This document shows, in pieces, positions 396-22,068 of a DNA stretch of 64,000 nt (position 1 is the stretch's first letter; every line of letters begins with the position of its first letter). The position numbers and the translations under genes were made by a program. The stretch comes from Agrobacterium tumefaciens (GTDB lineage: Bacteria > Pseudomonadota > Alphaproteobacteria > Rhizobiales > Rhizobiaceae), in assembly GCF_013318015.2 (NCBI RefSeq), contig NZ_CP115841.1, positions 2,483,501 to 2,547,500 of the forward strand, given 5' to 3'. The notes beneath the pieces were generated by a model, which did no database searches, was not told the DNA's origin, and saw nothing but the letters and a program-made list of their open reading frames with translations.

Positions 396-1013
396 TCAGT
401 GCCTCTTAGTGAGGTTACTGATTTCAAGAACAACAGAATCTGCCTCAATGGCACTCTGGTGTTTTATCAGATCAAACTGCCAGCGGCCATGCGCTTTCTG
501 CAGTTCGGATTCATAATCCCTGCCTTTATTGAAATATGCCCTGAGATTTGGATTATTCTGCGCCCACGGGTGAATATATTCGAAAAGTAAATTCATCTCG
601 GCGAGGGCTCTTGCCGAAACCGCATCGCAATTTTCAACGGTTTCAGGCGCTTTTTCAATTCTGACTGGATGAACCGCGCCTCTTGCGCCGGTTTCCTTCA
701 GCGCAATTCGCAAAAACGCAGCCTTTTTATTGTTGCTCTCTACCAGATCGACCCAACCATCACCCAGTTCCGCGAGAAAAATCGCTGTAATGACGCCCGG
801 AAAACCGCCGCCGCTTCCCAGATCAATCCATTTCTGCGGTTGAGGGGCGAGCTGAAATATCTGTGCACTGTCCGCGACATGCCGGCTCCAGAGCTCAGTG
901 AGAGTCGAAGGCGCAACCAGATTTGTGGTTTTGTTCCACTTCTTGAAAAGCTCGACGAAATGCTCGAGCCTCTCCTGTGTTTCACGTGAAACACTCTGGC
1001 CGTTTATCTTCAT
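396..1013 (-). CDS. rsmG: 16S rRNA (guanine-N7) methyltransferase RsmG (GidB)
   Basis: SAM-dependent methyltransferase that methylates N7 of G527 (E. coli numbering) in 16S rRNA. The 205-residue protein has the usual family length. The SAM-binding motif [10 protein letters not shown] lies near residue 65, and the upstream helix segment [11 protein letters not shown] is typical of RsmG. It starts 11 bp after mnmG and ends 19 bp before parA, so the three are probably cotranscribed. Codons 8-12 (SRET region) contain a perfect 16-bp parS palindrome, so the 5' end of this gene also serves as a ParB-binding site. Loss of RsmG is known in other bacteria to give low-level streptomycin resistance; nothing here suggests a defect. 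Confidence 0.97.
978..993. other. parS site 1 (perfect palindrome) inside rsmG
   Basis: TGTTTCACGTGAAACA is a perfect 16-bp palindrome and matches the widely conserved bacterial parS consensus at all 16 positions. It lies within codons near the start of rsmG, about 6.6 kb left of the proposed origin. It is the best of five related sites in the window and is the likely high-affinity ParB nucleation site. Confidence 0.95.
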
Positions 1014-1024
1014 GGTCCGACTCG

Positions 1025-2908
1025 CTATTGGTGCATGCGCAATTTTTCACTTCCTGGTGCGGAGCCTTTCCGCAGAAGTGCGAGAAGCAGCGATATCGCA
1101 GCAGGTGTTATACCGTCAACACGCGCAGCCTGGGCAATGTTCTCTGGACGTGCCTTTTCCAGCTTTTGTTTCAGTTCGTTGGAGAGACCGGACAAAGACT
1201 GAAAATCGAAATCACTGGGAATTTTTCTGTCTTCGTCTCGCTTGATATCGACAATATCCGCGCTTTGGCGCTGCATATAGACAGCGTAACTCGCTTCGAT
1301 TTCCAAAACCTCAGCGACCTTGGTATTAAGCGCCCGTAGCTCCGGCCAATGAGCGGCAAGAGTTTCCATTGTGATATCGGGGTAGGCGAGCATTTCATAA
1401 ACCGAACGACGCTGACCGTCCTGGTTGAGTTTCAATCCCTGTTTAGCAGCCTGGGAGGGACTGATGGAAATGCTCTTCATCAGCTCGCGACCCCGATCCA
1501 GATCGGAGATAAAATCTGCGAAGCGTTTTTGGCGGTCATGCCCGATAATGCCGGCCATCTGACCAATAGGTGTAAGTCGCAGATCAGCGTTGTCAACGCG
1601 AAGTGAAAGCCGATATTCCGCTCTCGACGTAAACATGCGATAGGGTTCGCTGACACCCTTGGAGGTGAGATCGTCGATCATCACACCGATATAGGATTCG
1701 GTACGACTGAAATGAATGGGGTCTGCATTGCCTGCATATAGCGACGCATTCAACCCGGCAACCAGACCCTGGGCGCCCGCCTCTTCATAACCCGTCGTGC
1801 CATTGATCTGCCCTGCCAGGAACAATCCCGGAATTTTCCGGCATTCCAGAGAAGGCTTGAGCTCACGCGGATCGACATAGTCATATTCAATCGCGTAGCC
1901 GGGCTGAATGATGTTGACTTGCTCAAGGCCGGGGATGGTGCGGATAAACTGCTCCTGAACTGAGGCCGGAAGCGACGTCGAAATTCCATTTGGATAAATT
2001 GTGTGGTCATCAAGGCCTTCTGGTTCCAGAAATATCTGATGACCGTCCCGTTCACCGAAGCGTGTAATCTTGTCTTCGATCGACGGACAATAGCGCGGAC
2101 CAACACCCTCGATCTGTCCCGAATACATCGCTGACAGATGAATATTATCCTGAATGATCTTGTGTCCCGCCGGCGTCGTCCGGGTTACGCCGCATTCGAT
2201 CTGTGGATTGACAATGCGATCCGTCATAAAGGAGAACGGAACGGGATCTTCATCGGCCGCTTGCCGATCCACAGCATTCCAATCGATCGTGCGACCATCA
2301 AGCCGGGCAGGGGTGCCGGTCTTCAGCCGGCCCATGGCGAGGCCCAGACGGCCAAGCGTTTCGGAAAGGCCAAGAGACGGTTTTTCACCAACCCGGCCTG
2401 CGGGAATCTTTTCGGAGCCGATATGAATAAGACCGCGTAGAAAAGTGCCGCTCGTCAACACAACAGCACCACAAGGAATCCGGCTACCGTTTGCCATGAT
2501 TACGGCGCAGACCTTATCATCCGCCATTTCAATATCGAAAGCATCACCTTCAATAATGCTAAGGTTTTCAATCGCATTGATTTCCCGTTGCATGGCCCCG
2601 CGATAAAGTCGCCGATCAGCCTGCGTGCGCGGCCCGCGGACGGCGGGGCCTTTTTTGCGATTGAGCATACGGAATTGAATTCCCGCTGCATCAGCAACCC
2701 GGCCCATCAAACCGTCCAGCGCATCAATTTCGCGGACCAGGTGTCCTTTACCGAGACCACCGATTGCCGGGTTACAGGACATCACCCCAATAGTCTCTCG
2801 CTTATGGGTAACGAGAGCGGTTTTAGCGCCATGTCGTGCAGCGGCCGCCGCAGCTTCGCTGCCGGCATGTCCACCACCGATAACAATGACATCAAATGAC
2901 TGGTGCAT
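1025..2908 (-). CDS. mnmG: tRNA uridine-5-carboxymethylaminomethyl synthesis enzyme MnmG (GidA)
   Basis: FAD-dependent partner of MnmE that installs the cmnm5 group on the wobble uridine (U34) of several tRNAs. The 627-residue protein starts with a dinucleotide-binding fold ([13 protein letters not shown], residues 9-21), followed by the family segment [21 protein letters not shown]. The C-terminal MnmE/tRNA-binding helical domain is complete, with YAVYMQRQ and later the D-F-D-F-x-x-L-x-G-L-S motif. Length matches other MnmG proteins. It is followed by rsmG after 11 bp and preceded by mnmE 62 bp upstream, with a parS-like site in that gap. mnmE-mnmG-rsmG-parA is a conserved origin-proximal gene order. 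Confidence 0.98.
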
Positions 2909-2957
2909 ATCCCTGCGCCTTATCCCAAATCATCGGCTTTGCCGTATTGGCCACCAA

Positions 2958-2973
2958 TGTTTCACGTGAATCA
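2958..2973. other. parS-like site 2 between mnmG and mnmE
   Basis: TGTTTCACGTGAATCA matches the palindromic parS consensus at 15 of 16 positions. It spans the mnmG-mnmE junction, about 4.6 kb left of the proposed origin, and touches the stop codon of mnmE. It is the exact reverse complement of site 3 at 9273-9288. Confidence 0.9.
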
Positions 2974-4302
2974 TTTTCCTATGCAGAATTCCGAGAAGAT
3001 CACGCCCAGCAAATCCTCCACATCGACGCGGCCAGTAATGCGTCCAAGCGATGTTGCTGCGAGTCTCAAGTATTCCGACCTTATCGCAAGGTCCATGGTC
3101 TCGGAATTGAGCGCATCACTAACATAGTTCAGCGTCTCTTCAAGTCGTTTTTTGTGCCGGGCGCGGGCAGGGACCAATGTCTGTGCAACACCAACCCTGC
3201 TTTCAATCTCTCGCTTGATCAATAGACGCAATTCGTCGAGACCAACGCCTTCCCTGGCGGAGATGGCGAGATCAAAAACAGCGTCAACTGTAGAAGAGGA
3301 AATCGCGGTTTTTGTCCGTAGATGCAAATGGCGAGCATTTTCCAGCGGAATGATGGATTGTTTCGGTGTCGAATCGTTATCTTGCAATATCAAAATAAGA
3401 TCCGCGGTTTCCGCTGTCAGAACGGCCCGCCTTACACCCTCCTTTTCGACCACATCCTGCGTCTCCCGAATTCCGGCCGTATCGAATATGCGGACCAGGT
3501 AACCGTCGAGATTAATCTCGACGCTCAGCACGTCTCTGGTCGTGCCAGCAATGTCAGTGACAATAGCAACGTCACGGCCGCTCAGAGCGTTAAGAAGCGT
3601 GGACTTGCCAGCGTTAGGCTCTCCCACCAGCGCCACCTTGAACCCGTCACGAATAATCTCGCTGCTTCCGCCGTTCTGGAGATGGCTGGTGATTTCACTA
3701 TGAAGTTGCATCATCGCGTCCCACACCTGCGCGGCAACTGAATCCGGCACATCTTCCTCGTCGGCGAAATCCAGCTCTGCCTCGATCAGGGCGCGAGCAC
3801 GCGTCAACCGGCCTGCCCAGCCATCGTAGAGCGCTGACAGCTTACCAGTGCTCTGCTCAACCGCTAGCCGCCGCTGCATCTCCGTTTCAGCCTGCAGCAG
3901 ATCCGCCAGACCTTCGATCTCGAGAAGATCCATCTTTCCGTTTTCAAACGCTCGGCGGGAGAACTCGCCGGCATCCGCCGGCCGAAATCCTTCGAGCAGT
4001 TCGAGCTCGGCAAAAATTGATGCGACAACCGCGCGGCTTCCGTGGCTGTGGATTTCGATGCAGTTCTCACCCGTAAAGGAATTTGGTGCAGGGAAAACGA
4101 TCATCAGCGCCTGGTCGATGATCTCATTGTTTCGGTTTCGAATCGAACATAGAACCGCCTGCCGCGGTTCTGGAAGGTCACGACCGGTCAAAGTGACAAA
4201 GGCTTCGAACGCGCCGGGCCCACTGATCCTGATAATTGCGACGCCGGCCGGCAATGCTCCACTGGAGAGCGCATAAATGGTATCGGCGGAAGCTGGCATC
4301 AT
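2971..4302 (-). CDS. mnmE: tRNA modification GTPase MnmE (TrmE)
   Basis: GTPase that works with MnmG to form 5-carboxymethylaminomethyl-uridine at tRNA position 34. The 443-residue protein has the family's three parts: an N-terminal formyl-THF-binding domain (DTIYALSSG, then FTGENCIEIHSHGS), a helical domain, and an inserted G domain with G1 GEPNAGKST, the DIAGTTRD switch segment and DTAGIRE. It ends with the conserved C-terminal FCIGK, whose cysteine is required for modification in homologues. Two ATGs lie in tandem (4302 and 4299). The GAGG element sits 3 nt from the first and 6 nt from the second, so the second may be used. The gene follows rho on the same strand. Confidence 0.97.
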   Translation of the reverse strand: MMPASADTIYALSSGALPAGVAIIRISGPGAFEAFVTLTGRDLPEPRQAVLCSIRNRNNEIIDQALMIVFPAPNSFTGENCIEIHSHGSRAVVASIFAELELLEGFRPADAGEFSRRAFENGKMDLLEIEGLADLLQAETEMQRRLAVEQSTGKLSALYDGWAGRLTRARALIEAELDFADEEDVPDSVAAQVWDAMMQLHSEITSHLQNGGSSEIIRDGFKVALVGEPNAGKSTLLNALSGRDVAIVTDIAGTTRDVLSVEINLDGYLVRIFDTAGIRETQDVVEKEGVRRAVLTAETADLILILQDNDSTPKQSIIPLENARHLHLRTKTAISSSTVDAVFDLAISAREGVGLDELRLLIKREIESRVGVAQTLVPARARHKKRLEETLNYVSDALNSETMDLAIRSEYLRLAATSLGRITGRVDVEDLLGVIFSEFCIGK

Positions 4303-4322
4303 TCACCTCGGTTAAAACAGTC

Positions 4323-4352
4323 AAGCCGCATCCGAATGAACGGATGCGGCTT
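4323..4352 (-). terminator. Hairpin after rho (probable terminator)
   Basis: A 12-bp perfect inverted repeat, AAGCCGCATCCG / CGGATGCGGCTT, with loop AATGAA lies 36 bp downstream of the rho stop codon and just upstream of mnmE. The run of T after the stem on the minus strand is weak, so it may be a transcript-stabilising or attenuating hairpin and not a full terminator. Confidence 0.55.
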
Positions 4353-4387
4353 TAAAGCTTTGTCGATGGGACCGGTAAAACTCCGGA

Positions 4388-5653
4388 TCAGGTATTCATC
4401 GATTCGAAGAAATCCGAATTGGTCTTGGTCTGCTTCAACTTGTCGATCAGGAACTCGATGGCATCCATCGTTCCCATCGGCGCGAGAATTCGGCGAAGCA
4501 CGAAAATCTTCTGGAGATCCTGACGCGGCACGAGCAGGTCTTCCTTACGTGTACCGGACTTGAGAATATCGAGCGCCGGGAAGATACGCTTGTCAGCGAC
4601 CTTACGGTCAAGCACGATTTCCGAGTTACCCGTACCCTTGAATTCTTCAAAGATGACTTCGTCCATGCGGCTGCCGGTGTCGATCAGCGCGGTCGCGATA
4701 ATCGTCAGCGAACCACCTTCTTCGATGTTACGTGCGGCACCGAAGAAACGCTTCGGCCGCTGCAGCGCGTTGGCATCCACACCACCGGTCAGGACCTTGC
4801 CGGAAGACGGAACGACCGTGTTATAAGCTCGGCCGAGGCGGGTGATGGAATCGAGCAGGATAACGACGTCGCGGCCATGTTCGACAAGGCGCTTCGCCTT
4901 TTCGATGACCATCTCGGCCACCTGGACGTGGCGTACAGCCGGTTCGTCGAAGGTTGACGACACCACCTCACCCTTGACCGAGCGCTGCATGTCGGTGACT
5001 TCTTCAGGACGTTCGTCGATCAGAAGAACGATCAGGTAACATTCCGGATGGTTAGCCGTGATGGAATGCGCGATGTTCTGCAAGAGAACAGTTTTACCGG
5101 TACGCGGCGGCGCGACGATCAATCCACGCTGGCCCTTGCCAAGTGGCGCGACCAGATCGATCACACGCGACGACAGATCCTTCGATGTCGGAAGCTCCAG
5201 CTCCATCTTGAACCGCTCATTCGGATAAAGCGGCGTCAGGTTATCGAAGTGAACCTTGTGACGGATTTTTTCAGGATCGTCAAAATTGATCGTGTTGACC
5301 TTGAGAAGCGCGAAATAACGTTCGCCTTCCTTGGGTCCACGGATCGGCCCCTCGACAGTATCGCCGGTCTTCAGAGAGAAACGGCGAATTTGCGAGGGCG
5401 AAATGTAGATATCGTCCGGACCCGGCAGATAATTTGCATTTGCGGACCGTAGAAAACCGAAACCGTCCTGCAGGACTTCAACGACGCCTTCGCCGATAAT
5501 TTCGATGTCCTGGCTCGCGAGAACCTTGAGGATTGCGAACATAAGCTCCTGCTTGCGCATGGTGCTCGCATTTTCAACTTCCAGGGATTCAGCAAAAGTT
5601 AGCAAGTCGGTAGGCGATTTGCTCTTAAGTTCCTGAAGCTTCATTTCAGCCAT
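4388..5653 (-). CDS. rho: Transcription termination factor Rho
   Basis: Hexameric RNA-dependent ATPase that ends transcription at Rho-dependent sites. The 421-residue protein is of normal length for the family. It has the N-terminal helical region, the RNA-binding cold-shock-like domain ([17 protein letters not shown] near residue 56), the Walker [14 protein letters not shown] near residue 180, Walker [12 protein letters not shown], and the Q/R-loop segment [13 protein letters not shown]. The start at 5653 gives [11 protein letters not shown]; a second ATG three codons on is possible because no strong ribosome site distinguishes them. It lies between hemJ and mnmE on the same strand. The 185-bp gap before hemJ shows no structure I could recognise. 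Confidence 0.98.
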
Positions 5654-5838
5654 GAAGGAAAGACCGTTTGATAATGTAATGTCGGGGGAGGGCGTGTTCG
5701 CGAATCAGATGCTGAGGGAGAAGCCGCAGATGACTGAATAATTCACATGCCACGAGATGAGTGGTCCGAAAATAGCGATTGAATAGGGCTACTGCAAGAG
5801 GAAAGCACGAATTCCGCGAAATTTATCGTTGCGACCTC

Positions 5839-6384
5839 TTAACCGAAGGGTTTCACAACCACAAGTATGACTATGAGGATCATCAGTACCGTCGGAACCT
5901 CGTTCATCAACCGCCAGTGACGGGCAGGCCTGATATTTTCATCCCGGGCGAACCGTTTGGCACTGCGGGTGAAATAGACGTGGGCGATGGTTAGTAGCAC
6001 CACCAGTGCGATTTTCGCATGTAGCCAGCCGCCGGAAAAACCATAAACCGACCATGCGAGATAAAGCCCTAATATCCAGCTGATCATCATCGCCGGGTTC
6101 ATGATGACCTTGATCAACCGCTGTTCCATCACCTTGAAGGTTTCGGATTGCTGCGAACCGGTGGGTGCATCGGTGTGGTAAATGAACAGGCGCGGCAGGT
6201 AAAAAATCGCCGCCATCCAGGAAATCACCGCGATGATATGAAGCGCCTTGATCCACAGATAGAGATCGGCCGGATCGGCGTAAAACAACAAAGCGACAAA
6301 AGCGGCAAAGACACCGAGCGCCATACCTGCGCGAAGGGCAGCCCTGTTTCCTGAGCGGGCGGAGGTCTGCTTCTCGCCGCTCAT
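5839..6384 (-). CDS. hemJ: Protoporphyrinogen IX oxidase HemJ
   Basis: Membrane protein of the HemJ family, which oxidises protoporphyrinogen IX to protoporphyrin IX, the penultimate step of haem synthesis. The 181 residues hold about four hydrophobic segments. The second carries the conserved [25 protein letters not shown], where the histidine is a proposed haem ligand, and the C-terminal half has [19 protein letters not shown]. Its start codon overlaps the hemE stop in an ATGA arrangement, so translation is probably coupled with hemE. HemG and HemY, the other oxidase types, are unrelated in sequence. The pairing of hemE with hemJ next to rho is common in alphaproteobacteria. Confidence 0.93.
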
Positions 6385-7415
6385 GCCCCGGCTCCGCCGG
6401 CACGCACCCGCTGCACCAGCCTTGCAACGTTTTCCGGATCGGCCTGCGGCGTGATGCCATGGCCGAGATTGAAGATCAGCGGGCCCTGTCCCAGAGCCTG
6501 CAGCACAGCGTCGATACCGTCCTCCAGAGCCTTGCCACCCGCCACCATCAGCATGGGGTCCAGATTGCCCTGTACCGGGCCTTCCTTCTGCAAGTCCCTT
6601 GCGAAACCGAGTGGCACCGACCAGTCGAGGCCGATGGCGTCTGCGCCTGTTTTGCGGCGATAATCCTTCAAAAGATAACCGGCCCCCTTGGCGAAGGCGA
6701 TGATCTTCGCGGAGGGGCGGCGAGCGCGCACCGAAGCGATGATACGGGCGACGGGTTTTACCGCATATTCCTCGAATTCCCTCTCGCCGAGCACCCCGGC
6801 CCAGGAATCGAAAATCTGCACCGCATCGGCGCCGGCATCAATCTGCGCCACAAGGTAGTCGGCGGAAACCTCAGCCAGCAAGGCAAGAAGCTTTTCCATA
6901 GCTGCCGGCTCCCGATAACCGAACAACCGCGCCGGCGCCTGATCAGGCGTTCCGTGGCCGGCAATCATGTAGGTTGCGACCGTCCAGGGCGCACCGCAAA
7001 AACCGAGAAGCGTCGTCTCATCCGGCAAGGTATGGCGCAAACGTGAGACGGTTTCGAAAACGGGTGAAAGATGCGCAATCACATTGCTCGCATCCAGCCT
7101 GTCGATGCCATCCACATCGATCGGATCCATGGCCGGACCCTTTCCCTCGCTGAAGGAAACATTGCGATTAAACCCATCCGGTATCACCAGAATATCGGAA
7201 AAGAGGATAGCTGCATCAAGACCGAACCGGCGAATGGGCTGAAGGGTCACTTCGGTTGCCAGTTCGGGATTATAACAGAGATCGAGGAAACTGCCGGCGT
7301 TCTTTCGCGTTTCCCTGTACTCCGGAAGGTAACGCCCTGCCTGCCGCATCAGCCATATGGGCGGAGGTGTGACCGTCTGCCCGTTCAACACCTTTAAAAC
7401 CTTGCGCTCGCTCAT
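6381..7415 (-). CDS. hemE: Uroporphyrinogen decarboxylase HemE
   Basis: Decarboxylates the four acetate side chains of uroporphyrinogen III to give coproporphyrinogen III in haem synthesis. The first ATG (7415) gives 344 residues starting [12 protein letters not shown]; an in-frame TTG three codons upstream is less likely. Family signatures are [18 protein letters not shown] (residues 16-35), the aspartate-containing [13 protein letters not shown], and [13 protein letters not shown]. The gene faces away from the proposed origin and overlaps hemJ by 4 bp. hemE beside the replication origin is a landmark of alphaproteobacterial chromosomes, known from Caulobacter crescentus and Sinorhizobium meliloti. 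Confidence 0.97.
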
Positions 7416-7440
7416 GCCACCCAACTTCCAAAAAATAAAA

Positions 7441-7474
7441 TCTAAGAGATTTAAAAGATTTTCTATTTCTTAGA
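7441..7474. repeat. Inverted repeat and AAAATCT motifs upstream of hemE
   Basis: TCTAAGA (7441-7447) and TCTTAGA (7468-7474) form a 7-bp inverted repeat. AAAATCT occurs at 7437-7443 and 7495-7501, and as AGATTTT at 7456-7462. The same heptamer recurs at 45054-45060 before pckA. It lies between the AT-rich origin region and the hemE start, so it could be part of the hemE promoter or of the origin. No known regulator is assigned. Confidence 0.4.
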
Positions 7475-7570
7475 GTCGGTGAGTAGCAAGGATTAAAATC
7501 TTTCCAGTCGATATGCCGCAGTCGGGTGTAAGCGCCAAGACCTGAACACGGCATTTCATCGCTTCATCGC

Positions 7571-7627
7571 AATAAATTGGATAATAGATATTTATATAAT
7601 ATTTTCAGATATTTAAGTTATATCCTT
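7571..7627. other. AT-rich block, candidate DNA unwinding element
   Basis: Bases 7571-7620 contain 5 G/C of 50, with runs such as ATATTTATATAATATTTT. It directly precedes the DnaA-box cluster, which is the usual relative arrangement of an unwinding element and its initiator boxes. Confidence 0.75.
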
Positions 7628-7640
7628 TGAAGCCGTTGCC

Positions 7641-7806
7641 TGTGGATCATCTGTGGACAGTTTTGAACAAGTTCAGAGTTTCCAGACAATTCACAGGCAT
7701 GCCTGATAGCAAGGACGCCACTTGCGGATTGTGGAAAAAACCCACTTTATCCACGAGGCGGCTCGGCCCGCGGAACAATTCGGAAGTTTGTCCCGGTTTA
7801 TCAACA
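7641..7806. promoter_or_regulatory. Cluster of DnaA-box-like 9-mers
   Basis: Compared with TTATCCACA or its complement TGTGGATAA: TGTGGATCA at 7641 (one mismatch), TGTGGACAG at 7652 (two), TGTGGAAAA at 7730 (one), TTATCCACG at 7747 (one) and TTATCAACA at 7798 (one). Five such sites in 166 bp of non-coding DNA is far above chance and fits DnaA binding. None is a perfect box, so the strongest site is not obvious. Confidence 0.8.
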
Positions 7807-7822
7807 GCGAGAGAAAAACAGC

Positions 7823-8675: not shown

Positions 8676-9275
8676 ATGAAACAAGAGTTGATCCTCGCCT
8701 CGTCCAGCGCATCCCGTCAGATGTTGATGCGCAATGCGGGGCTGACATTTTCGGCGATCCCGGCGGATATTGACGAGCGCGCGCTCGACGAGCAGCTGGA
8801 AAAAAATGGCGCAAAGCCGGAAGAGGTTGCGCTGGAACTGGCCAAGGCCAAGGCGCTCGCGGTAAGTGCCCTGCATCCGCAAGCACTCGTTCTTGGATGC
8901 GACCAGACGATGGCGCTCGGTGCCCGGGTGTACCACAAGCCAAAAACCATGGCCGAAGCCGAAGCACATTTGCTCTCATTATCCGGCAAGGTTCATCGAT
9001 TGAACAGTGCAGCCGTTCTTGCCCGCGGGGGTGATGTCGTATGGCAGACGATCTCCAGTGCCGAGCTTTCGGTGCGAACTTTGAGCGCCGAATTCGTCTC
9101 CCGCCACCTGCAACGCGTGGGTGAAAAGGCCTTGACCAGTGTCGGTGCCTATCAGCTCGAGGGCGAAGGAATCCAGCTATTTACTTCGATAGAGGGGGAT
9201 TATTTCACCATTCTTGGCCTGCCGCTTCTGCCTCTCTTAATGAAACTGCGCGACATGGATGTCATCGATGGCTGA
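8676..9275 (+). CDS. maf: Maf-family nucleoside-triphosphate pyrophosphatase
   Basis: Maf proteins hydrolyse non-canonical or modified nucleoside triphosphates to monophosphates and so clean the nucleotide pool. The 199-residue protein has the N-terminal signature [19 protein letters not shown] (S-x-S-x-x-R), the catalytic-site GCDQTMAL near residue 70, and the C-terminal GAYQLEGEG followed by [12 protein letters not shown] ribosome site GGAG lies upstream of ATG 8676. The last codons overlap the start of aroE, so the two are translationally linked. Subfamily substrate preference (dTTP/UTP against 7-methyl-GTP) cannot be settled from sequence by eye. Confidence 0.92.
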
Positions 9276-10128
9276 TTCACGTGAAACATTAACTATAAAC
9301 GCCTTCGTTGTCGGTTATCCGATCAAGCACTCCCGGTCACCGATCATCCATTCCTACTGGCTGAAAAAATTCGGGATACCCGGCTCCTATAAGGCCATTG
9401 AGGTTGCCCCCGATGACTTCCCCGATTTCATCTCGGCACTAAAAGAACAGGGACCTGGTGCAGCGGTGGGTGGCAACGTCACCATTCCGCACAAGGAAGC
9501 GGCCTTTAAGTTGGCGGACAGTCCCGATGAGCTGGCGGAGGAACTGGGTGCAGCCAATACCGTCTGGATGGAAGAGGGCAGGCTGCATGCCACCAACACG
9601 GATGGCTATGGCTTCGTTTCCAATCTCGATGAGCGCCATCCCGGATGGGAGAAAACCGACCGGGCGGTGGTGTTCGGAGCCGGCGGTGCAAGCAGGGCCG
9701 TCGTTCAGTCGCTGCGGGACCGCGGCATTGCCGAAATCCACGTCCTGAACCGCACGGTCGAACGTGCCCGTGAAATGGCCGACCGTTTCGGTGCACGGGT
9801 TTTTTCTCATCCTCAGGGCGCACTTCATGAAGTCATGCAGGACGCCGGGTTGTTTGTGAACACGACATCGCTGGGTATGGACGGAACGGAAGCGCCCGAG
9901 ATTGATTTTTCGCCGCTCGCTGCAAGTGCTGTTGTAACCGATATCGTCTATGTGCCGTTGAGAACCCCCATCCTCCAGATGGCGCAGACACAGGGTATTG
10001 CGACGGTCGATGGGCTTGGCATGCTCCTTCATCAGGCAAAACCCGGCTTTAAAAAATGGTTCGGCAAAACGCCGGAAGTTGATGACACTCTTCGTTCCCT
10101 CATCATTGAGGATATGGAGAAACATTGA
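9268..10128 (+). CDS. aroE: Shikimate dehydrogenase AroE
   Basis: NADP-dependent reduction of 3-dehydroshikimate to shikimate, the fourth step of the aromatic amino acid pathway. The protein has the substrate-binding [16 protein letters not shown] near residue 15, the catalytic lysine in [17 protein letters not shown], and the nucleotide-binding [10 protein letters not shown]. Two in-frame ATGs exist, 9259 and 9268. The second gives [16 protein letters not shown] (286 residues) and is preferred because it overlaps maf by only 8 bp; the first gives 289. A parS-like site occupies codons 2-7 of the short form (again encoding SRET). The next gene, coaE, overlaps its stop codon. Confidence 0.96.
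9273..9288. other. parS-like site 3 at the maf-aroE junction
   Basis: TGATTCACGTGAAACA matches the parS consensus at 15 of 16 positions. It starts on the maf stop codon and runs into aroE, about 1.7 kb right of the proposed origin, making it the closest parS-like site to it. Confidence 0.9.
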
Positions 10129-11483: not shown

Positions 11484-11510
11484 AAAACCCGGGCGATGAA
11501 CCCGGGTTTT
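11484..11510. terminator. Bidirectional rho-independent terminator between dnaQ and secB
   Basis: Stem AAAACCCGGG / CCCGGGTTTT, 10 bp and perfect, with a 7-base loop, flanked by A-rich sequence on the left and T-rich on the right. It separates two convergent genes and can work for both. Confidence 0.9.
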
Positions 11511-11550
11511 GTTTTGTGTGAACTCTAAAAAGAGCGGCGTCACGTACAAT

Positions 11551-12033
11551 TCAGTTCGGTACGGCCTGAACCTTGGCTCTGGCCTGTTCCTCGGCAACGC
11601 GCTGCGAAAACATCTGCGCGAAATCGATCGGATCGATCATCAGCGGCGGGAAGCCACCATTGCGGGTGACATCGGCGATGATCTGGCGTGCGAAGGGGAA
11701 CAGCAGGCGCGGGCACTCAATGAACAGCACCGGCAGCATATGTTCCTGCGGGAAACCGGCAATGCGGAACACGCCGCCATAAACCAGCTCGGCTGCAAAC
11801 AGAACCTTGTCGCCATCCTTGGCTTCGGCATTCAGCGTCAGCACAACGTCGAAATCCGAACCCGAAATCGGGTTTGCGTTGACATTGACATTGATGTTGA
11901 TCGACGGCGCATTGTCACGAGCCTGAAGCGAACGAGGAGCACCCGGATTTTCGAAAGAAAGATCCTTGATGTACTGGGTAAGAATGTTGAGGGAAGGACT
12001 AACTGCGCCCTGTGCGCCATTTTCAGCGGTCAT
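11551..12033 (-). CDS. secB: Protein-export chaperone SecB
   Basis: Tetrameric cytosolic chaperone that keeps preproteins unfolded and delivers them to SecA. The 160-residue protein is of family length. It has [19 protein letters not shown] near the N-terminus, the beta-strand segment [53 protein letters not shown], and [17 protein letters not shown] near the C-terminus. It is preceded on the same strand by fxsA, 99 bp away. A Tim44-like protein is encoded just upstream in the opposite direction; both concern membrane or export processes, but no direct functional link is shown. Confidence 0.97.
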
Positions 12034-12132
12034 TACGTTTCCTCGCGGCGTGATTTCGTGGAAGGCGGTCTATCATTTCGACTTGAGCCTTACAACCCTC
12101 GTGCTCTCGGCTCCCTAACCCTTTGCCGTGCT

Positions 12133-12690
12133 TCAGGGTTTGGGCAGGTTGCGATCATCCGGCTTTTGGGACCAGGGAGAATCCTTGGGCCCTTCGCGGT
12201 GAAACTCCTGTTCGTCGAGGTCCACGACCTTGGAGCTACCCTTATTTCCCTGACCATTGCTGAACCCGGAAAAGTCACCGGGTTGCGGCCCGGTCTGGCC
12301 GCCGGGTTGACCCGACTGGCGAAAAGAACCGGCCACGACGACGCGGGGTCCGAGGATCTTCCAGAAAAAACGTCTCACCGTTTTCGACAGAAGCAGGAGA
12401 CCGAGTATATCGGTGATGAAACCCGGGATGAACAGCAGGATGCCCGCCACGACGCGCATGGCGCCATTGACCAGCTCATCGGCAGGCTGGGCGCCGGTAC
12501 GACCTGCGGCCTGAAGATTTCTCACCATGCCGATGCCGCCGAGCCGCAGGATCAGCAACCCCAGAAACGACGTGAACAGGACGAGCGCCAATGTCAGCCA
12601 CAGACCGATTGTCTTGCCGACGATGATGAAACCGGCAATTTCCAGGATTGGCATCATCAGGATGACGATGGGGAGAAAGGAAAAACGCAT
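12133..12690 (-). CDS. fxsA: FxsA-family membrane protein
   Basis: FxsA family (named for suppression of F-plasmid exclusion of phage T7 in E. coli when overproduced); its normal role is unknown. The 185-residue protein begins with FSFLPIVILMMPILEIAGFIIVGKTIGLWLTL, giving two close hydrophobic segments, then LFTSFLGLLILR, and a further pair around GILLFIPGFITDILGLLLL, the family's most conserved stretch. The last 70 residues are hydrophilic and rich in Gly, Gln and Pro, probably cytoplasmic and disordered. It is divergent from the Tim44-like gene, with a shared 141-bp promoter region. Confidence 0.88.
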   Translation of the reverse strand: MRFSFLPIVILMMPILEIAGFIIVGKTIGLWLTLALVLFTSFLGLLILRLGGIGMVRNLQAAGRTGAQPADELVNGAMRVVAGILLFIPGFITDILGLLLLSKTVRRFFWKILGPRVVVAGSFRQSGQPGGQTGPQPGDFSGFSNGQGNKGSSKVVDLDEQEFHREGPKDSPWSQKPDDRNLPKP

Positions 12691-12831
12691 CTTCTAGCCT
12701 TGCGTGTGCATCTCTGGCAGATTGCCGGTTCCCGAGAACACCGATGATTGAATCTGCACATTTGAATGATGATAAGATGCAGACTATATGATGTTCAGGT
12801 TTTTGAATTTAAATGGCGGTTTTGGTAAAAG

Positions 12832-13530
12832 ATGGGCTTTAGCGACTTTATCACATTGTTTTTTCTCGTTGCAGCGGTGCTGATCTTTCTTCAGCTGCGC
12901 AGCGTTCTTGGTCGCCGAACCGGCAATGAGAAGCCGCCATTCGACCCTTACACGCCGCGCGATGTCGCGAAAGGCCCCGTCACGGACGATAACAAGGTCG
13001 TGACCCTGCCCAAACGCTCTGAGGCGGAGGACGAAAACCGCTTTGCCGAGGCGGATGCTCTGGCACCCGTCGATACTGCCTTGAATACATCCCTGCGCGA
13101 GCTGATGACCAAGGACCCGACCTTCCGCCCCAAGGAATTCCTGAACGGCGCCCGCATGGCCTATGAGATGATCGTCATGGGTTTTGCCGATGGTGACCGC
13201 AAGACGTTGAAGAACCTTCTGTCGAAGGAAGTTTTCGACGGGTTCGAGGCGGCCATTTCCGAGCGGGAAAGTCGCGGCGAGGTGGTCAAGTCCACTTTCG
13301 TGGGAATAGAGAAGGCCGATATCACCCAGGCCGGTATCCGCGATTCCGAAGAGCAGATCACGCTCAGAATAGTCAGCCAGCTGATTTCGGCCACCTATGA
13401 CAAGGATGGCAAGCTGGTGGACGGCGATCCCGATGCGGTTGCGGAAGTGGACGACATCTGGACCTTCTCGCGTGATGTCCGCTCGCGCGATCCCAACTGG
13501 AAGCTGATCGCCACTGAATCCGAGCAATGA
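12832..13530 (+). CDS. Tim44-like domain protein (membrane-anchored)
   Basis: Bacterial relative of the C-terminal domain of mitochondrial Tim44. The 232-residue protein has a single N-terminal hydrophobic helix (FITLFFLVAAVLIFLQL, residues 5-21), a charged linker of about 60 residues, and a Tim44-like globular domain from about residue 80 (RPKEFLNGARMAYEMIVMGFADGDRKTLKNLLSKEVFDGFEAAI) to the end, with VDDIWTFSRDVRSRDPNWKLIAT closing it. In alphaproteobacteria such proteins have been discussed as possible ancestors of the mitochondrial import motor; the bacterial role is not established. Its stop overlaps the mltA start in an ATGA, the first of three such overlaps in this operon. Confidence 0.88.
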   Translation: MGFSDFITLFFLVAAVLIFLQLRSVLGRRTGNEKPPFDPYTPRDVAKGPVTDDNKVVTLPKRSEAEDENRFAEADALAPVDTALNTSLRELMTKDPTFRPKEFLNGARMAYEMIVMGFADGDRKTLKNLLSKEVFDGFEAAISERESRGEVVKSTFVGIEKADITQAGIRDSEEQITLRIVSQLISATYDKDGKLVDGDPDAVAEVDDIWTFSRDVRSRDPNWKLIATESEQ

Positions 13531-14639
13531 ATACGCCCTTTTCGTTCGAAGAAGTTTCTTTCGGTGATCTGCCGGGATGGCAGGAGGATGATCCGCGTAA
13601 GCTGTTTCCGGCGATGCGGACGATCCTGTCACATCTTCGGAATTCAAAACCCTACAGGACCGGCGCGCTGGGTCTCACCGCCGGCGAACTGGCCTCGCTT
13701 CTGGAACTGGCCGATGAGGAACAAGCGGATAGTCCCCAGCAGGCCCGCCGGTTTTTCGAGACGAATTGTGTACCTTTCAAAATTTCACCACCCGGCGGAA
13801 AACGCGGTTTTGTAACTGCCTTTTATGAACCGGAGCTTGAGGTATCGTCAGTCCGCGACGATGTCTGGAAGTATCCGCTCTACCGCCGCCCACCGGAGCT
13901 GGTGGATATCGATGACGAAAATCGCCCGAGCGGTTTTGATCCGTCCTATGCTTTTGGCAGAGAGGGCGAGGACGGCATTTCCTATTTTCCCGATCGCCGC
14001 GCGATCGACGAAGGATATCTGCAGGGCAGGGGGCTTGAGATTGCCTGGGCGAGATCGAAGGTCGATCTGTTTTTCGTCCACGTTCAGGGTGCTGCCCGTC
14101 TTCTGTTTCCTGATGGAGAGGTGAAACGCATCACCTATGCCGCCAAGGCCGGGCATCCGTTCTCGCCGATCGGTCGGTTGCTTCTGGATCGTGGGGAACT
14201 GGATCCGAAAACGATCTCGATGCAGACAATTCGCAAATGGCTCGCCGACCATCCGGATGAGGTGGATGGGGTGCTATGGCATAATCGCTCCTATATTTTT
14301 TTCCGGGAGGCTGATGTTGCCGGTCTGGATATGGGACCGATCGCCGCCGCCAAGGTGCCGCTGGTCGCGGGGCGGGCGCTTGCGGTGGACAGGCTCATCC
14401 ACACCTTCGGTTTTCCCGTCTTTATCCATGCGCCGTCATTGACCCACCTGGATAATGGCAAGCCCTTCGCGCGGTTGATGCTGGCGCTCGATACCGGCTC
14501 GGCCATCGTTGGCCCGGCACGCGGCGACATTTTCACCGGCTCGGGTTTCGAAGCCGGGGAACTTGCAGGCACAGTGCGCAACGACGCCGATTTCTATATG
14601 CTGCTGCCGCATGTTGCTGCGAAAAGGTATCGGCGATGA
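13527..14639 (+). CDS. mltA: Membrane-bound lytic murein transglycosylase A family protein (MltA)
   Basis: Cleaves the MurNAc-GlcNAc bond of peptidoglycan, leaving 1,6-anhydroMurNAc. The 370-residue protein has the MltA core: GFVTAFYEPELEVSSVRDD, then YLQGRGLEIAWARSKVDLFFVHVQGAARLLFPDG, and a C-terminal 3D domain (LMLALDTGSAIVGPARGDIFTGSGFEAGELAG) containing three conserved aspartates, the last being the likely catalytic acid. I see no clear signal peptide or lipobox at the N-terminus (MNTPFSFEEVSFGDLPGW), which is odd for a periplasmic enzyme. It overlaps its neighbours by ATGA on both sides. Confidence 0.93.
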   Translation: MNTPFSFEEVSFGDLPGWQEDDPRKLFPAMRTILSHLRNSKPYRTGALGLTAGELASLLELADEEQADSPQQARRFFETNCVPFKISPPGGKRGFVTAFYEPELEVSSVRDDVWKYPLYRRPPELVDIDDENRPSGFDPSYAFGREGEDGISYFPDRRAIDEGYLQGRGLEIAWARSKVDLFFVHVQGAARLLFPDGEVKRITYAAKAGHPFSPIGRLLLDRGELDPKTISMQTIRKWLADHPDEVDGVLWHNRSYIFFREADVAGLDMGPIAAAKVPLVAGRALAVDRLIHTFGFPVFIHAPSLTHLDNGKPFARLMLALDTGSAIVGPARGDIFTGSGFEAGELAGTVRNDADFYMLLPHVAAKRYRR

Positions 14640-15689: not shown

Positions 15690-18158
<2,469 letters not shown>

Positions 18159-18180
18159 TCCTGTGGGACGTCTCGCGTGA

Positions 18181-18196
18181 CGATTCACGTGAAACG
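18181..18196. other. parS-like site 4 downstream of gyrB
   Basis: CGATTCACGTGAAACG keeps the ATTCACGTGAAAC core and matches the parS consensus at 13 of 16 positions. It lies between the gyrB stop codon and its terminator, about 10.6 kb right of the proposed origin. The three mismatches are in the outer arms, so affinity may be lower. Confidence 0.75.
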
Positions 18197-18207
18197 AAAC
18201 TTTAACG

Positions 18208-18241
18208 AAAGGCCCGGCGGTCAATTTCCGCCGGGCCTTTT
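18208..18241 (+). terminator. Rho-independent terminator of gyrB
   Basis: 13-bp perfect stem AAAGGCCCGGCGG / CCGCCGGGCCTTT with loop TCAATTT, running into a short T tract. It also reads acceptably on the minus strand, for the convergent nitroreductase gene. Confidence 0.9.
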
Positions 18242-18261
18242 GTCATCTGTGTTGTCGGATA

Positions 18262-18864
18262 TCAATCGGCCTTGCCGGTGAACCGCCCCTTGAAAGCTAC
18301 GTCCGAAAGGGGGAGGCGTTTGCTGGGCACTTCCCGTTCTGCCAGATCGTCAGGAAGAACAGCCTTGTCGGTCAATGTGCCGATGGCAACTGCGGCCTCC
18401 ACCTTATATCCATCCGGAACATCAAGCTTTTCCACGATCTGGTCTTTAAATATGCCTGCCATGCCATGGGCGTGGTAACCGAGCAGATGTGCCTGCATGG
18501 CGAGTGAAAACCATGCCGCACCGGCATCGAAGGAATGGGTCGCTGAAGGCTTTTTCTCACCCTCTCGTGAAATATTGTGGTCGCGGGAAAGGATGAAGAG
18601 TAGGACCGAGGCATTTTTTGCCCAGCGCTGGTTTCCTTCCATCAGCAGTTCCACGAAGAGCGGCCAATCCTCGCTATCCTTGTGCGCGTAGACAAACCGC
18701 CACGGTTGCTGGTTGGATGCCGATGGCGCCCAATGCGCGGCATCGAGAATGGTCAGCAGATGCTCGTTTGGCATCGCATCTCCATCGAATGCGCGCGGAG
18801 ACCACCGATCGAGGAAGAGTGGATCGACTGGATATTCGGATTGCCGGGAATTGCTGTTCGTCAC
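18262..18864 (-). CDS. Nitroreductase-family oxidoreductase
   Basis: FMN-dependent nitroreductase-fold protein. The best start is GTG 18864, preceded by AAAGGA at suitable spacing, giving 200 residues; an in-frame TTG 20 codons upstream is less likely. It shows the family's FMN-binding opening RWSPRAFDG (residues 21-29), then APSASNQQPWRFVYA (residues 47-61) and the later DAGAAWFSLAMQAHLLGYHAHGMAGI. Substrate cannot be told from sequence; relatives reduce nitroaromatics, quinones or enones. It is divergent from an FAH-family gene across a 127-bp region containing a short palindrome, which suggests shared control. Confidence 0.88.
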   Translation of the reverse strand: MTNSNSRQSEYPVDPLFLDRWSPRAFDGDAMPNEHLLTILDAAHWAPSASNQQPWRFVYAHKDSEDWPLFVELLMEGNQRWAKNASVLLFILSRDHNISREGEKKPSATHSFDAGAAWFSLAMQAHLLGYHAHGMAGIFKDQIVEKLDVPDGYKVEAAVAIGTLTDKAVLPDDLAEREVPSKRLPLSDVAFKGRFTGKAD

Positions 18865-18935
18865 GGGCGTGTCCTTTTGATTGTCGGGAGGGAAAAGGTA
18901 TTTTTCGAAAGTCGAAGCAGTCAAGGGGTGACAAG

Positions 18936-18954
18936 TATGAATGTATCGTTCATA
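18936..18954. promoter_or_regulatory. Palindrome between nitroreductase and FAH-family genes
   Basis: TATGAA-N7-TTCATA forms a 6-bp inverted repeat about 40 bp before the FAH-family start and 72 bp before the nitroreductase start. Its size and place suit an operator for a TetR/MarR-like repressor, but no such regulator is adjacent and this may be chance. Confidence 0.35.
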
Positions 18955-18991
18955 TATGCATCACCTTGTCTGACAACCGGGAGAGAGTTCC

Positions 18992-19834
18992 ATGAAATTG
19001 ATGCGCGTTGGCCAGCCTGGCCAGGAAAAACCTGCGATCCTCGACGCGGAAGGAAAAGTCCGCGATTTGTCTGCTCATGTCAAAGACATCGGCGGTGAAG
19101 CCATTTCTCCGGAAGGCCTGAAGAAGATTGCCGCCATCGACCTCGGCACTCTTCCCGTAATCTCTGAAGAGCGCATTGGCGCTTGTGTTGCCGGAACCGG
19201 AAAATTCATCTGCATCGGCCTTAATTTCTCTGACCACGCCGCTGAAACCGGTGCGACCGTACCGCCGGAACCGGTCATTTTCATGAAGGCGACCTCGGCA
19301 ATCGTCGGTCCGAACGATAACGTTGTCATTCCGCGCGGTTCTGAGAAGACCGACTGGGAAGTCGAACTCGGCGTCGTCATCGGCAAGACCGCGAAATATG
19401 TATCTGAGGCTGATGCTCTCGACTACGTCGCCGGTTATTGCGTTTCGCACGATGTTTCTGAGCGCGCGTTCCAGACCGAGCGTGCCGGACAGTGGACCAA
19501 GGGTAAATCCTGCGACACCTTCGGTCCGATCGGCCCCTGGCTGGTCACGAAGGACGAAATCACCGATCCGCAGAACCTCGGAATGTGGCTGAAGGTCAAC
19601 GGCCAGACAATGCAGGACGGCTCCAGCAAGACCATGGTTTACGGCGTCGCGCATGTCGTTTCCTATCTCAGCCAGTTCATGTCTCTGCATCCCGGCGACG
19701 TCATTTCCACCGGCACGCCTCCGGGCGTCGGCATGGGCCAGAAGCCCCCGCGTTACCTCAAGACCGGCGATGTCGTTGAACTCGGCATTGAAGGCCTCGG
19801 TTCCCAGAAACAGACCTTCGTTGCCGACATCTGA
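18992..19834 (+). CDS. Fumarylacetoacetate hydrolase (FAH) family protein
   Basis: Metal-dependent enzyme of the FAH superfamily, which cleaves or isomerises C-C bonds of 2-oxo acids (fumarylpyruvate, acylpyruvates, 2-keto-3-deoxy sugars). The 280-residue protein is single-domain: a short N-terminal part, then the catalytic domain from GKFICIGLNFSDHAAETG (about residue 70), PVIFMKATSAIVGPND, DWEVELGVVIGK (with the metal-ligand Glu residues) and GDVISTGTPPGVGMG. Many genomes label such proteins ureidoglycolate lyase, but no purine-catabolic neighbour supports that here. A GGGAGAG ribosome site precedes ATG 18992. A terminator hairpin follows. Confidence 0.88.
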   Translation: MKLMRVGQPGQEKPAILDAEGKVRDLSAHVKDIGGEAISPEGLKKIAAIDLGTLPVISEERIGACVAGTGKFICIGLNFSDHAAETGATVPPEPVIFMKATSAIVGPNDNVVIPRGSEKTDWEVELGVVIGKTAKYVSEADALDYVAGYCVSHDVSERAFQTERAGQWTKGKSCDTFGPIGPWLVTKDEITDPQNLGMWLKVNGQTMQDGSSKTMVYGVAHVVSYLSQFMSLHPGDVISTGTPPGVGMGQKPPRYLKTGDVVELGIEGLGSQKQTFVADI

Positions 19835-19861
19835 TTATCAACAAACGTTCAACTGAAATTG

Positions 19862-19889
19862 AGGCGCCGGAGGGAAACCACCGGCGCCT
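19862..19889 (+). terminator. Terminator-like hairpin after the FAH-family gene
   Basis: 9-bp stem AGGCGCCGG / CCGGCGCCT with a 10-base loop, followed by TCGATTTT, 27 bp after the stop codon. Confidence 0.75.
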
Positions 19890-19959
19890 TCGATTTTGTG
19901 CAGTTGCGAAAAGCTGCTATGGTCAAAAAAAGAGCTTGATCCGCGAGGAGGCGTAATCA

Positions 19960-21192
19960 GTGTTCTACCACCTCTATGAAATGAACCATGCGGCGATGGC
20001 GCCACTGCGCGCCGGTGCCGATATGATGCGCCAGGCATGCAGCAATCCTTTGAACCCGCTTTCCAGCACCGCCTTCGGGCGAAGCCTCGACGCAGGCTTT
20101 GAGGTATTCGAGCGGCTGACGCGCCGTTACATCAAGCCGGAGTTCGGTTTGGCGACTACCACCGTCGATGACCGGACCGTTGCCGTCACTGAAGAGATCA
20201 TCTGGTCGCGTCCCTTCTGTAATCTCGTTCATTTCAAAAAAGAACTCGATGCGGCCCGCAAACCAGATCCTAAGATGCTGCTGGTGGCGCCTATGTCTGG
20301 CCACTACGCCACATTGCTGCGGGGAACGGTCGAGGCGCTGCTGCCATCCGCGGATATCTATATCACCGATTGGATCGATGCCCGCATGGTGCCAGTCACC
20401 GAAGGGACATTCGATCTCGACGATTACATTAGCTACGTCATCGATATGCTGCGCGAGATCGGGCCCGGCGCCCATGTGGTCGCTGTTTGTCAGCCCTCGG
20501 TTCCGGTTCTGGCCGCAGTGTCCCTGATGGAAGCCGATGGTGACGGTTTCGCGCCTGCATCCATGACGCTGATGGGCGGTCCGATCGATACGCGCATCAA
20601 TCCCACAGCCGTCAACGGTCTGGCCACGGCCAAGCCAATCGAATGGTTCCGCGACAATGTCGTCATGCAGGTACCGTGGCCGCAGCCGGCTTTTGGCCGG
20701 AATGTCTATCCCGGCTTCCTGCAATTATCCGGCTTCATGTCCATGAACCTCGACAAGCACATGACCGCACACAAGGATTTCTACCTGAACCTCGTCAAGA
20801 ACGACGGCGATTCCGCTGAGAAGCATCGCGATTTTTACGATGAATATCTGGCCGTGATGGATTTGACGGCGGAGTTCTACCTGCAGACAGTTGAAACCGT
20901 CTTCATCGAACACGCGCTTCCCAAGGGAAACATGCAGCATAGGGGCAGGGCGGTCGATCCCGCTGCCATTCGTAACGTCGCGCTGTTCACCGTGGAAGGC
21001 GAAAACGACGATATTTCCGGTGTGGGCCAGACCAAAGCCGCACACGATCTTTGCCGGAACATCCCCGATGAAAAGCGTGGGCACTACATGCAGCCCGACG
21101 TCGGGCACTACGGCGTTTTCAACGGGTCGCGTTTCCGCAAGGAGATTGTGCCGCGCATGGTGGAATTCATCCGCAAGAACCAAACTGTCTAG
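19960..21192 (+). CDS. phaZ: Intracellular poly(3-hydroxybutyrate) depolymerase PhaZ
   Basis: Mobilises storage polyhydroxybutyrate granules inside the cell. The 410-residue protein starts at GTG 19960 behind GAGGAG. It resembles the Ralstonia PhaZa1 group: MFYHLYEMNHAAMAPLRAGA at the start, a hydrolase core with LLVAPMSGHYATLLRGTV, DWIDARMVP, and the nucleophile-elbow replacement VAVCQPSVPVL, in which Cys177 takes the place of the usual serine of the lipase box. The C-terminal GHYGVFNGSRFRKEI carries the likely catalytic histidine. No other PHB gene is near. It is followed at 69 bp by the ygjP-type gene. Confidence 0.93.
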   Translation: MFYHLYEMNHAAMAPLRAGADMMRQACSNPLNPLSSTAFGRSLDAGFEVFERLTRRYIKPEFGLATTTVDDRTVAVTEEIIWSRPFCNLVHFKKELDAARKPDPKMLLVAPMSGHYATLLRGTVEALLPSADIYITDWIDARMVPVTEGTFDLDDYISYVIDMLREIGPGAHVVAVCQPSVPVLAAVSLMEADGDGFAPASMTLMGGPIDTRINPTAVNGLATAKPIEWFRDNVVMQVPWPQPAFGRNVYPGFLQLSGFMSMNLDKHMTAHKDFYLNLVKNDGDSAEKHRDFYDEYLAVMDLTAEFYLQTVETVFIEHALPKGNMQHRGRAVDPAAIRNVALFTVEGENDDISGVGQTKAAHDLCRNIPDEKRGHYMQPDVGHYGVFNGSRFRKEIVPRMVEFIRKNQTV

Positions 21193-21260
21193 CGCTGGAA
21201 GCCAGGCGATGCCGCGCATTTGCGTGGCCAAGCCGGTGTCGAATCGGCTATGAACAGTCC

Positions 21261-22028
21261 ATGTTTTCGTTCCTCAGAAAATCCGTGAAGTCGCCGGCGC
21301 CGAAAAAGGTAGCGCCCAGCCAACGCACCGTCGAGGTGGCTGGCCGTCATGTGCCCATTACGGTGAAGGAAAATCCGCGCGCCACGCGCATCACCTTGCG
21401 CATCGAACCCGGCGGCCGGGCCATGAAGCTGACGATCCCGATGGGGCTTCACCATGGCCAGGTGGATGATTTTCTCGAAAGGCATCAGGGTTGGATTGAA
21501 GGCAAGCTTTCGAAAATCACCCCAGATGACGGTTTGTGTCATGGTGCGTCGGTTGATATTCGCGGCGTATCCCATCGTATCCATCACACTGGCAGCCTGC
21601 GTGGCCTGACTCATATCTCCAAAGACGAGGACGGCACGGCGGTATTGAAAGTCAGCGGAGCGCCCGAACACCTGCGCAGACGGGTGGCCATGTTTTTGAA
21701 AAAGGAAGCGAAGGCTGATCTGGAGAGGCTTGTTGCGGTTCACGCGAGCGCGGCCGGAAAGCCAGTGCGATCCATCAGCATGAAGGACACCCGCAGCCGC
21801 TGGGGTTCGTGTTCCCATGATGGAAATCTGAGTTTCTCGTGGCGTATCGTCATGGCTCCGGAAAAGGTCATCGATTATCTCGCAGCCCACGAGGTTGCGC
21901 ATCTGCGGGAAATGAACCACGGCCCGAAATTCTGGGCCCTGTGCGAAAAACTCTGCCCGCATACGCAGGAAGCCAAGGAATGGCTGAAGCGTCACGGCTC
22001 TAAACTCCACGCCATCGATTTTGATTGA
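21261..22028 (+). CDS. YgjP/DUF45-type zinc metallopeptidase
   Basis: M48-related metal-dependent hydrolase of the YgjP (DUF45) family. The 255-residue protein has the family C-terminal block: DTRSRWGSCSHDGNLSFSWRIVMAP, then the zinc motif HEVAH in YLAAHEVAHLREMNHGPKFWAL, where the downstream His or Glu would give the third ligand. The N-terminal 50 residues are basic. Function in bacteria is unknown; homologues are often encoded near trp or restriction genes. It stands 102 bp before trpF, with a parS-like site in that gap. Confidence 0.87.
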   Translation: MFSFLRKSVKSPAPKKVAPSQRTVEVAGRHVPITVKENPRATRITLRIEPGGRAMKLTIPMGLHHGQVDDFLERHQGWIEGKLSKITPDDGLCHGASVDIRGVSHRIHHTGSLRGLTHISKDEDGTAVLKVSGAPEHLRRRVAMFLKKEAKADLERLVAVHASAAGKPVRSISMKDTRSRWGSCSHDGNLSFSWRIVMAPEKVIDYLAAHEVAHLREMNHGPKFWALCEKLCPHTQEAKEWLKRHGSKLHAIDFD

Positions 22029-22052
22029 AAGTGGAGGCGTGCATCGCCATCT

Positions 22053-22068
22053 GGATTCACGTGAAACA
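22053..22068. other. parS-like site 5 upstream of trpF
   Basis: GGATTCACGTGAAACA matches the parS consensus at 14 of 16 positions and lies in the gap between the metallopeptidase gene and trpF, about 14.5 kb right of the proposed origin. Confidence 0.8.

Follow-up and report, generated by a model that had tools for sequence, protein, structure and literature searches.

Putative parS sites around the presumed origin of an Agrobacterium-like rhizobium, including one read in frame by rsmG

Several ParB/parS systems have been described that resemble the locus considered here, and they are cited from excerpts of the respective articles. In Agrobacterium tumefaciens, enrichment of ParB1 at parS1 sites has been published, and the consensus of these sites is identical to that of Bacillus subtilis (PMC9239152). 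In Caulobacter crescentus, parS sites occur inside genes whose loss is lethal or costly, and weak putative sites show little or no ParB enrichment (PMC5815017). Secondary replicons of rhizobia carry palindromic centromere sites of the ParB family, for which positive selection for sites inside coding sequences has been suggested (PMC9040568). In Mycobacterium bovis BCG, one parS lies beside gidB and another within parA (PMC2346475). This study concerns a stretch of 64,000 nucleotides (hereafter the window) from an Agrobacterium-like rhizobium, corresponding to C1:2483501-2547500 of a genome with six contigs, among them contigs of 2.80, 2.14, and 0.21 Mb. The window carries five 16-bp palindromes around a presumed replication origin, beside the partition genes parA and parB, and one of the palindromes is part of the reading frame of rsmG (gidB).

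The five palindromes, together with a sixth at C1:2475808, are interpreted here as parS sites, where the ParABS system of the primary chromosome loads ParB, with a probability that we put at about 93% from sequence comparison. As judged on that basis, the cluster is an ordinary and expected ParABS centromere, a new instance of a known system. An earlier note made from the letters of the window had proposed parS-like sites at positions 978, 2958, 9273, 18181, and 22053, matching TGTTTCACGTGAAACA at 16, 15, 15, 13, and 14 of 16 positions. All five were confirmed (0, 1, 1, 3, and 2 mismatches), and their distances to the AT-rich origin block hold, at 6.6 and 4.6 kb on the left and 1.7, 10.6, and 14.5 kb on the right. 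The claim that five such sites exceed chance was borne out as well, as none of 100 shuffles of the window reached five (mean 0.28, maximum 3). A genome-wide search for the 16-mer with up to three mismatches returned 13 sites in 6,002,464 bases, against seven with the reversed pattern. The 13 comprise the five in the window, the one at C1:2475808, and seven scattered sites, a number equal to that of the control; an equal density of sites elsewhere on the genome was looked for and not found. The genome's only three sites with at most one mismatch all lie inside the window. The 10-mer core TTCACGTGAA has six copies in the genome, five of which are the window sites (own-genome positions were not listed in that search). 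The five sites are thus 16-bp palindromes near TGTTNCACGTGAAACA that cluster near oriC, itself a presumed feature, and are rare elsewhere, as expected of parS. Two more sites with two mismatches (G000:C1:2443508 and G000:C6:88226) are without the full core and are regarded as chance occurrences.

The cluster that the earlier note described is real, and the set that it gave was incomplete. A likely sixth parS, TGTCCCACGTGAAACA, lies outside the window at C1:2475808-2475823, 8,670 bases left of site 1. Its distance to the rsmG site is 8.67-8.70 kb in the five genomes for which it was worked out (G001, G003, G006, G007, and G011). A hairpin with a run of T follows directly after this sixth site.

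The sites recur at orthologous places in related DNA. A comparison of 80 related named loci, each taken around hemE and two of them from short contigs, gave 280 sites with up to three mismatches; 77 of the loci have at least one. The recurrent places include the start of rsmG, the gap between mnmE and gidA (mnmG), and the junction of maf and aroE. Sites 4 and 5 lie beyond the flanks of these loci and were followed in 13 of 39 genus genomes, namely those with listed coordinates. Chance palindromes, at least at these two sites, have been considered as an explanation, since sites with three mismatches elsewhere in the genome are about as frequent as in the control. This explanation is close to negligible in probability, given that all 13 genus genomes have both sites, with the 10-bp core and the place kept and the flanks varying.

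Other features of these places were also seen. In L024, L027, L030, L055, and others, two sites 26-46 bp apart occupy the mnmE-gidA gap, about 4.5 kb from the start of hemE, and L076 has more than two sites there. The Ensifer/Sinorhizobium loci L045, L047, L048, and L074 have extra sites, absent from the window, at distances of about 3.2 and 1.63 kb to the start of hemE. In the genus genomes compared, site 4 is followed at once on its 3' side by a terminator-like hairpin with a T run (window 18200-18230). Just 3' of site 5 (window 22069-22110), a string resembling GATTTGGCTCGACTC, perhaps a promoter, is kept with small changes in the 13 genus genomes, and the bases between vary. The contig of L081 is titled Bacillus subtilis SK6B4, carries an alphaproteobacterial locus, and groups with Brucellaceae in a gidA tree; it looks mislabelled or contaminated.

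The partner protein is of the matching type. The ParB encoded just left of the window matches Caulobacter ParB (6t1f and 7bm8) at an E value of 3.5e-67. By alignment, its specificity positions 173, 179, 184, and 201 (numbering of PMC7383237, in part) are R, S, K, and G, of which R173 and G201 are parS-type residues. Both parA and parB are nearby, with a ParB of the parS-binding type. The RTKG variant of ParB has been reported to be promiscuous (PMC7383237), so that K184 might loosen recognition here. Binding sites of Noc, a protein with Q173, K179/K184, and R201, do not fit this set of residues. The parS of repABC replicons shares the palindromic form and the ParB family and differs in its consensus GTTNNCNGCNGNNAAC and in its location in or near the repABC operon (PMC9040568). 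The core TTCACGTGAA misfits that consensus, for which the genome was not searched.

A close likeness is to ParB1/parS1 of A. tumefaciens, which belongs to the genus of one of the nearest named contigs and shares both the consensus and the clustering beside the origin (PMC9239152). No difference from it was found in a comparison made without the published site positions. The Caulobacter system shares the ParB family, several sites at a distance of some kilobases on the hemE/rsmG side of the origin, the placing of sites inside genes, and GTGAAA as the better-kept half of the palindrome (PMC5815017). It differs in layout, as the five strongest Caulobacter sites lie within 5 kb on one side, whereas here the sites flank the origin on both sides over 21-30 kb. 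Adjacency to parAB, the type of ParB, the repeated orthologous places, and the published ParB1 enrichment (PMC9239152, in part) together support a chromosomal ParABS system. The palindromes could instead be operators of a transcription factor that recognizes a CACGTG core, as some of them stand in gene gaps ahead of genes. Other sites lie within coding sequence or between convergent genes, however, and the clustering at the origin beside parAB and the identity with the known parS consensus leave the operator explanation barely credible.

If the sites are parS, general knowledge of ParABS systems suggests how they would work. ParB dimers would bind each 16-bp palindrome by a helix-turn-helix motif, close as clamps dependent on cytidine triphosphate, and slide onto the flanking DNA. 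The assembled ParB complex would then be moved by ParA in chromosome segregation, and SMC loading would take place there as well. With several sites of differing strength spread over about 30 kb, the local dose of ParB near the origin would be raised. In such a scheme, gene starts and ends would double as parts of the centromere, in the form of VSRET in RsmG, the stop codon of mnmE, and the stop codon of maf with DSRET in AroE.

The rsmG site allows constraint on the DNA to be separated from constraint on the protein. The gene was found in 76 of the 80 named loci (not in L025, L087, L088, and L089). All 76 encode VSRET, and 75 of them use exactly GTT TCA CGT GAA for its first four residues, compared to a total of 0.23 expected from the codon usage of each locus. 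The commonest 12-mer accordingly has a share of 99% for VSRE. To control for common descent, we took 68 gidA tetrapeptides conserved in 95% or more of these loci; the share of their commonest 12-mer had a median of 11% and a maximum of 25%. For three tetrapeptides of mnmE it was at most 7%. The codon string in rsmG is frozen far beyond both controls, so that the constraint is on the DNA. The Thr codon that completes VSRET is ACA in 44 genes, ACG in 23, ACC in 6, and ACT in 3, its last base being the outermost base of the parS.

Comparison across the class extends this pattern. The gene was found in 134 of 143 genomes of Alphaproteobacteria (the window's own included), and 100 other rsmG starts of 301 bases each were compared, 80 from the top of the list with a few passed over and 20 from the rest. 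An in-frame site with up to three mismatches was present at the N-terminus of RsmG in 85 of the 100, encoding VSRET in 79, VSHET in three, VPRET in two, and VSCET in one. Of these 85 sites, 61 are perfect palindromes, and nine have a further site within the 301 bases. Double changes that mirror each other across the palindrome were seen six times, against a mean of 0.83 in shuffles, none of 5000 of which was as high. Five of the six are at the outermost pair, and the remaining one is TGTTTCGCGCGAAACA, in which VSRET is kept by synonymous codons. This count is suggestive of selection at the level of DNA. A further mirrored variant, TGTTCCACGTGGAACA, lies in L180 outside the positions counted and encodes VPRGT; it occurs again upstream of gidA in the same genome and twice in another genome (L258 and L268). 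The site in rsmG thus appears to be kept in Alphaproteobacteria as DNA, with codons frozen and changes that tend to mirror across the palindrome.

A different account of these data would be that VSRET is conserved for the function of the protein and that the palindrome is a by-product, which would fit the presence of the peptide in every named gene and in 79 of the 100 from the class. This account is very improbable, because the synonymous positions are also frozen and the palindrome is read in that frame a second time, as DSRET in AroE. In addition, the 15 class genes without a site in the positions counted are mostly without the peptide, L180 with its VPRGT being an instance.

These 15 genomes and five controls with a site were followed over stretches of 4.8-8.6 kb. 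In 14 of the 15, another site with up to two mismatches was present: six inside the matched rsmG, five within 200 bases upstream of it, one just downstream, one in parA, and one upstream of gidA. The sole exception is L265, with a 4.8-kb stretch at a contig end. Lost synteny was considered as a cause of the loss of the rsmG site and was dropped for lack of variation, as parA and parB lie downstream of rsmG in all 20 genomes, with parA no more than about 2.5 kb away. It seems that the centromere shifts to a nearby place instead of disappearing. Beyond the class, the rsmG starts of 40 of the 86 matching genomes of other Pseudomonadota were compared (those of L236 and L243 are cut by a contig end), and none of the 40 has a site with up to two mismatches. 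Six have weak matches with three to four mismatches; in five of these a TTCA word is followed by a terminal GAAAAA or TAAAAA. In five of the 40 (L220, L224, L227, L234, and L238), a weak match like TGATTCACCTGAAAAA, with three to four mismatches, stands some 130-185 bp upstream of where the match to rsmG begins.

Other sites of the cluster meet translation at the ends of genes. Site 2, read on its own strand, starts with TGA, the stop codon of mnmE, and the MnmE protein ends in CIGK. Sites 2 and 3 are imperfect (T3 to A) because the stop codon there needs an A. Of the 79 named aroE genes, 53 encode the peptide DSRET, every time as GATTCACGTGAAAC. It is absent from the Brucella, Phyllobacterium, and Aurantimonas relatives compared and from eight rows placed among the Rhizobiaceae. 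A quickly built gidA tree of 75 rows, several of whose branches are weak, requires three changes of the DSRET label, against a mean of 20 when the label is shuffled. This history is compatible with one gain and two losses. L060 and L069 have ADRREN and ADPREN in place of DSRET, which look like remnants of a site. In Rhizobiaceae, the site at maf/aroE accompanies a longer N-terminus of AroE and would be an example of a newly arising site at a gene end. The perfect palindrome has two open frames, VSRET and FHVK (the latter seen as KLFHVKQ in L158), and a third that reaches TGA; a coding perfect parS can therefore use two frames or end a gene.

The imperfect sites also raised the idea that parS sites are polar, with the imperfect half toward the origin directing the loading of ParB or SMC. 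The worse half is toward the origin in four of four imperfect window sites, and among the 280 sites of the named loci it is proximal in 136 and distal in 54 (57 are perfect and 33 equal). What is counted here, however, is a small number of orthologous sites passed on by descent, and in sites 2 and 3 the stop codon of a gene directed away from the origin falls in the altered half. The rule is broken by the sixth site, with its worse half away from the origin, by GGATTCACGTGAAACA in Brucella and some Phyllobacterium, where it lies left of the origin, and by CGATTCACGTGAAACG in Sinorhizobium. Polarity relative to the origin is thus highly unlikely and was dropped.

Several observations weigh against the interpretation of all six sites as parS, or against constraint on the rsmG site as DNA. 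Site 4, with three mismatches, is not significant by its score alone. Sites 4 and 5 share A3 without having a stop codon there, so that the stop codon does not explain it; A3 may be a tolerated base in these two sites. The sixth site was found as an exact single copy in only 24 of 39 genus genomes. Three of the 80 named loci (L087, L088, and L089) have no site in the DNA examined, in which rsmG was not found either. For SRET, the commonest 12-mer is common to only 43 of 76 genes (57%), owing to variation at the third position of the Thr codon. Finally, the genomes in which mirrored changes were counted are related and do not count as independent cases.

The coordinates of the sites and their neighbours are given in Table 1. 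As the earlier note had it, parA lies at the left edge: its 5' end is there, in an open reading frame that spans window positions -418 to 454 with a probable ATG at about 376. The gene order by Pfam is rsmG/gidB, mnmG/gidA, mnmE, rho, and hemE left of the presumed origin. Right of it follow a kinase/pyrophosphorylase gene (from 7823), maf, aroE, coaE, and genes for an exonuclease, MltA, Smr, and a helix-turn-helix protein, then gyrB, and after gyrB genes for a nitroreductase, a FAH hydrolase, a PHB depolymerase-like protein, and a YgjP-like protein. The open reading frames at 11509-12747 and 12784-13647 had no Pfam match in a scan that covered part of the window's reading frames. It is plausible that the origin lies between hemE and the kinase/pyrophosphorylase gene, and the two DnaA-box-like words there are the only ones in the window by two strict patterns. 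The region has no transfer RNA gene and no Rfam match at gathering score. The closest named contigs are from Rhizobium rhizogenes and Agrobacterium salinitolerans, with HemE 91-93% identical (the window's own record was perhaps excluded).

Table 1. Putative parS sites and neighbouring features (window positions unless marked C1).
Feature	Position	Strand	Remarks
parB	C1:2482169-2483050		Just left of the window; named by sequence and by its match to Caulobacter ParB
parA, 5' part	1..376	-	Remainder left of the window, at C1:2483082; named by sequence
rsmG (gidB)	396..1013	-	Pfam GidB, 3e-36; carries site 1
parS site 1	978..993		Perfect palindrome inside rsmG/gidB; minus strand GTT TCA CGT GAA ACA (VSRET)
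mnmG (gidA)	1025..2908	-	Pfam match
parS site 2	2958..2973		1 mismatch; mnmE-gidA gap; last three bases are the minus-strand mnmE stop
mnmE	2971..4302	-	Pfam match; stop codon within site 2
hemE	6381..7424	-	Pfam match; left border of presumed origin
Presumed oriC	7425..7822	.	AT-rich block at about 7430-7640; DnaA-box-like words at 7730 and 7747; function inferred
maf	8676..9275	+	Pfam match; stop codon within site 3
aroE	9268..10128	+	Start at 9268 or 9259; codons 3-7 from 9268 in site 3
parS site 3	9273..9288		1 mismatch; first three bases are the maf TGA; GAT TCA CGT GAA ACA (DSRET) in aroE
parS site 4	18181..18196		3 mismatches, core intact; between gyrB and a convergent gene
parS site 5	22053..22068		2 mismatches, core intact; intergenic, 25 bp past the YgjP-like gene

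A parS embedded in rsmG of Alphaproteobacteria was not found described in the literature searched, which left out key papers, and no priority is claimed. Nor was literature found that treats parS together with rsmG and ParB. The excerpts of PMC6315104, PMC9040568, PMC2346475, PMC7383237, PMC5815017, and PMC9239152 describe no such alphaproteobacterial site, and a word look-up in the main text of PMC5815017 returned none of gidB, rsmG, and coding. The gidB site of M. bovis BCG differs from the one described here in lying upstream of the gene, over a promoter and outside the reading frame (PMC2346475, in part).

We lean towards a view in which a long-standing alphaproteobacterial centromere in the frame of rsmG dictates the N-terminal VSRET and may help hold rsmG by parAB, and in which new sites keep arising in gene ends, with translation limiting where. 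As the site is part of the gene, it may help to keep rsmG beside parAB near the origin, and the embedded site offers a testable reason for the rsmG-parA-parB neighbourhood. The frozen codons make it possible to test for selection on the DNA independently of the protein. They also call for caution, in that VSRET in RsmG and DSRET in AroE should not be taken as functional protein motifs. Since a coding parS leaves the VSRET signature, gains and losses of centromere sites could be traced in protein sets across the class.

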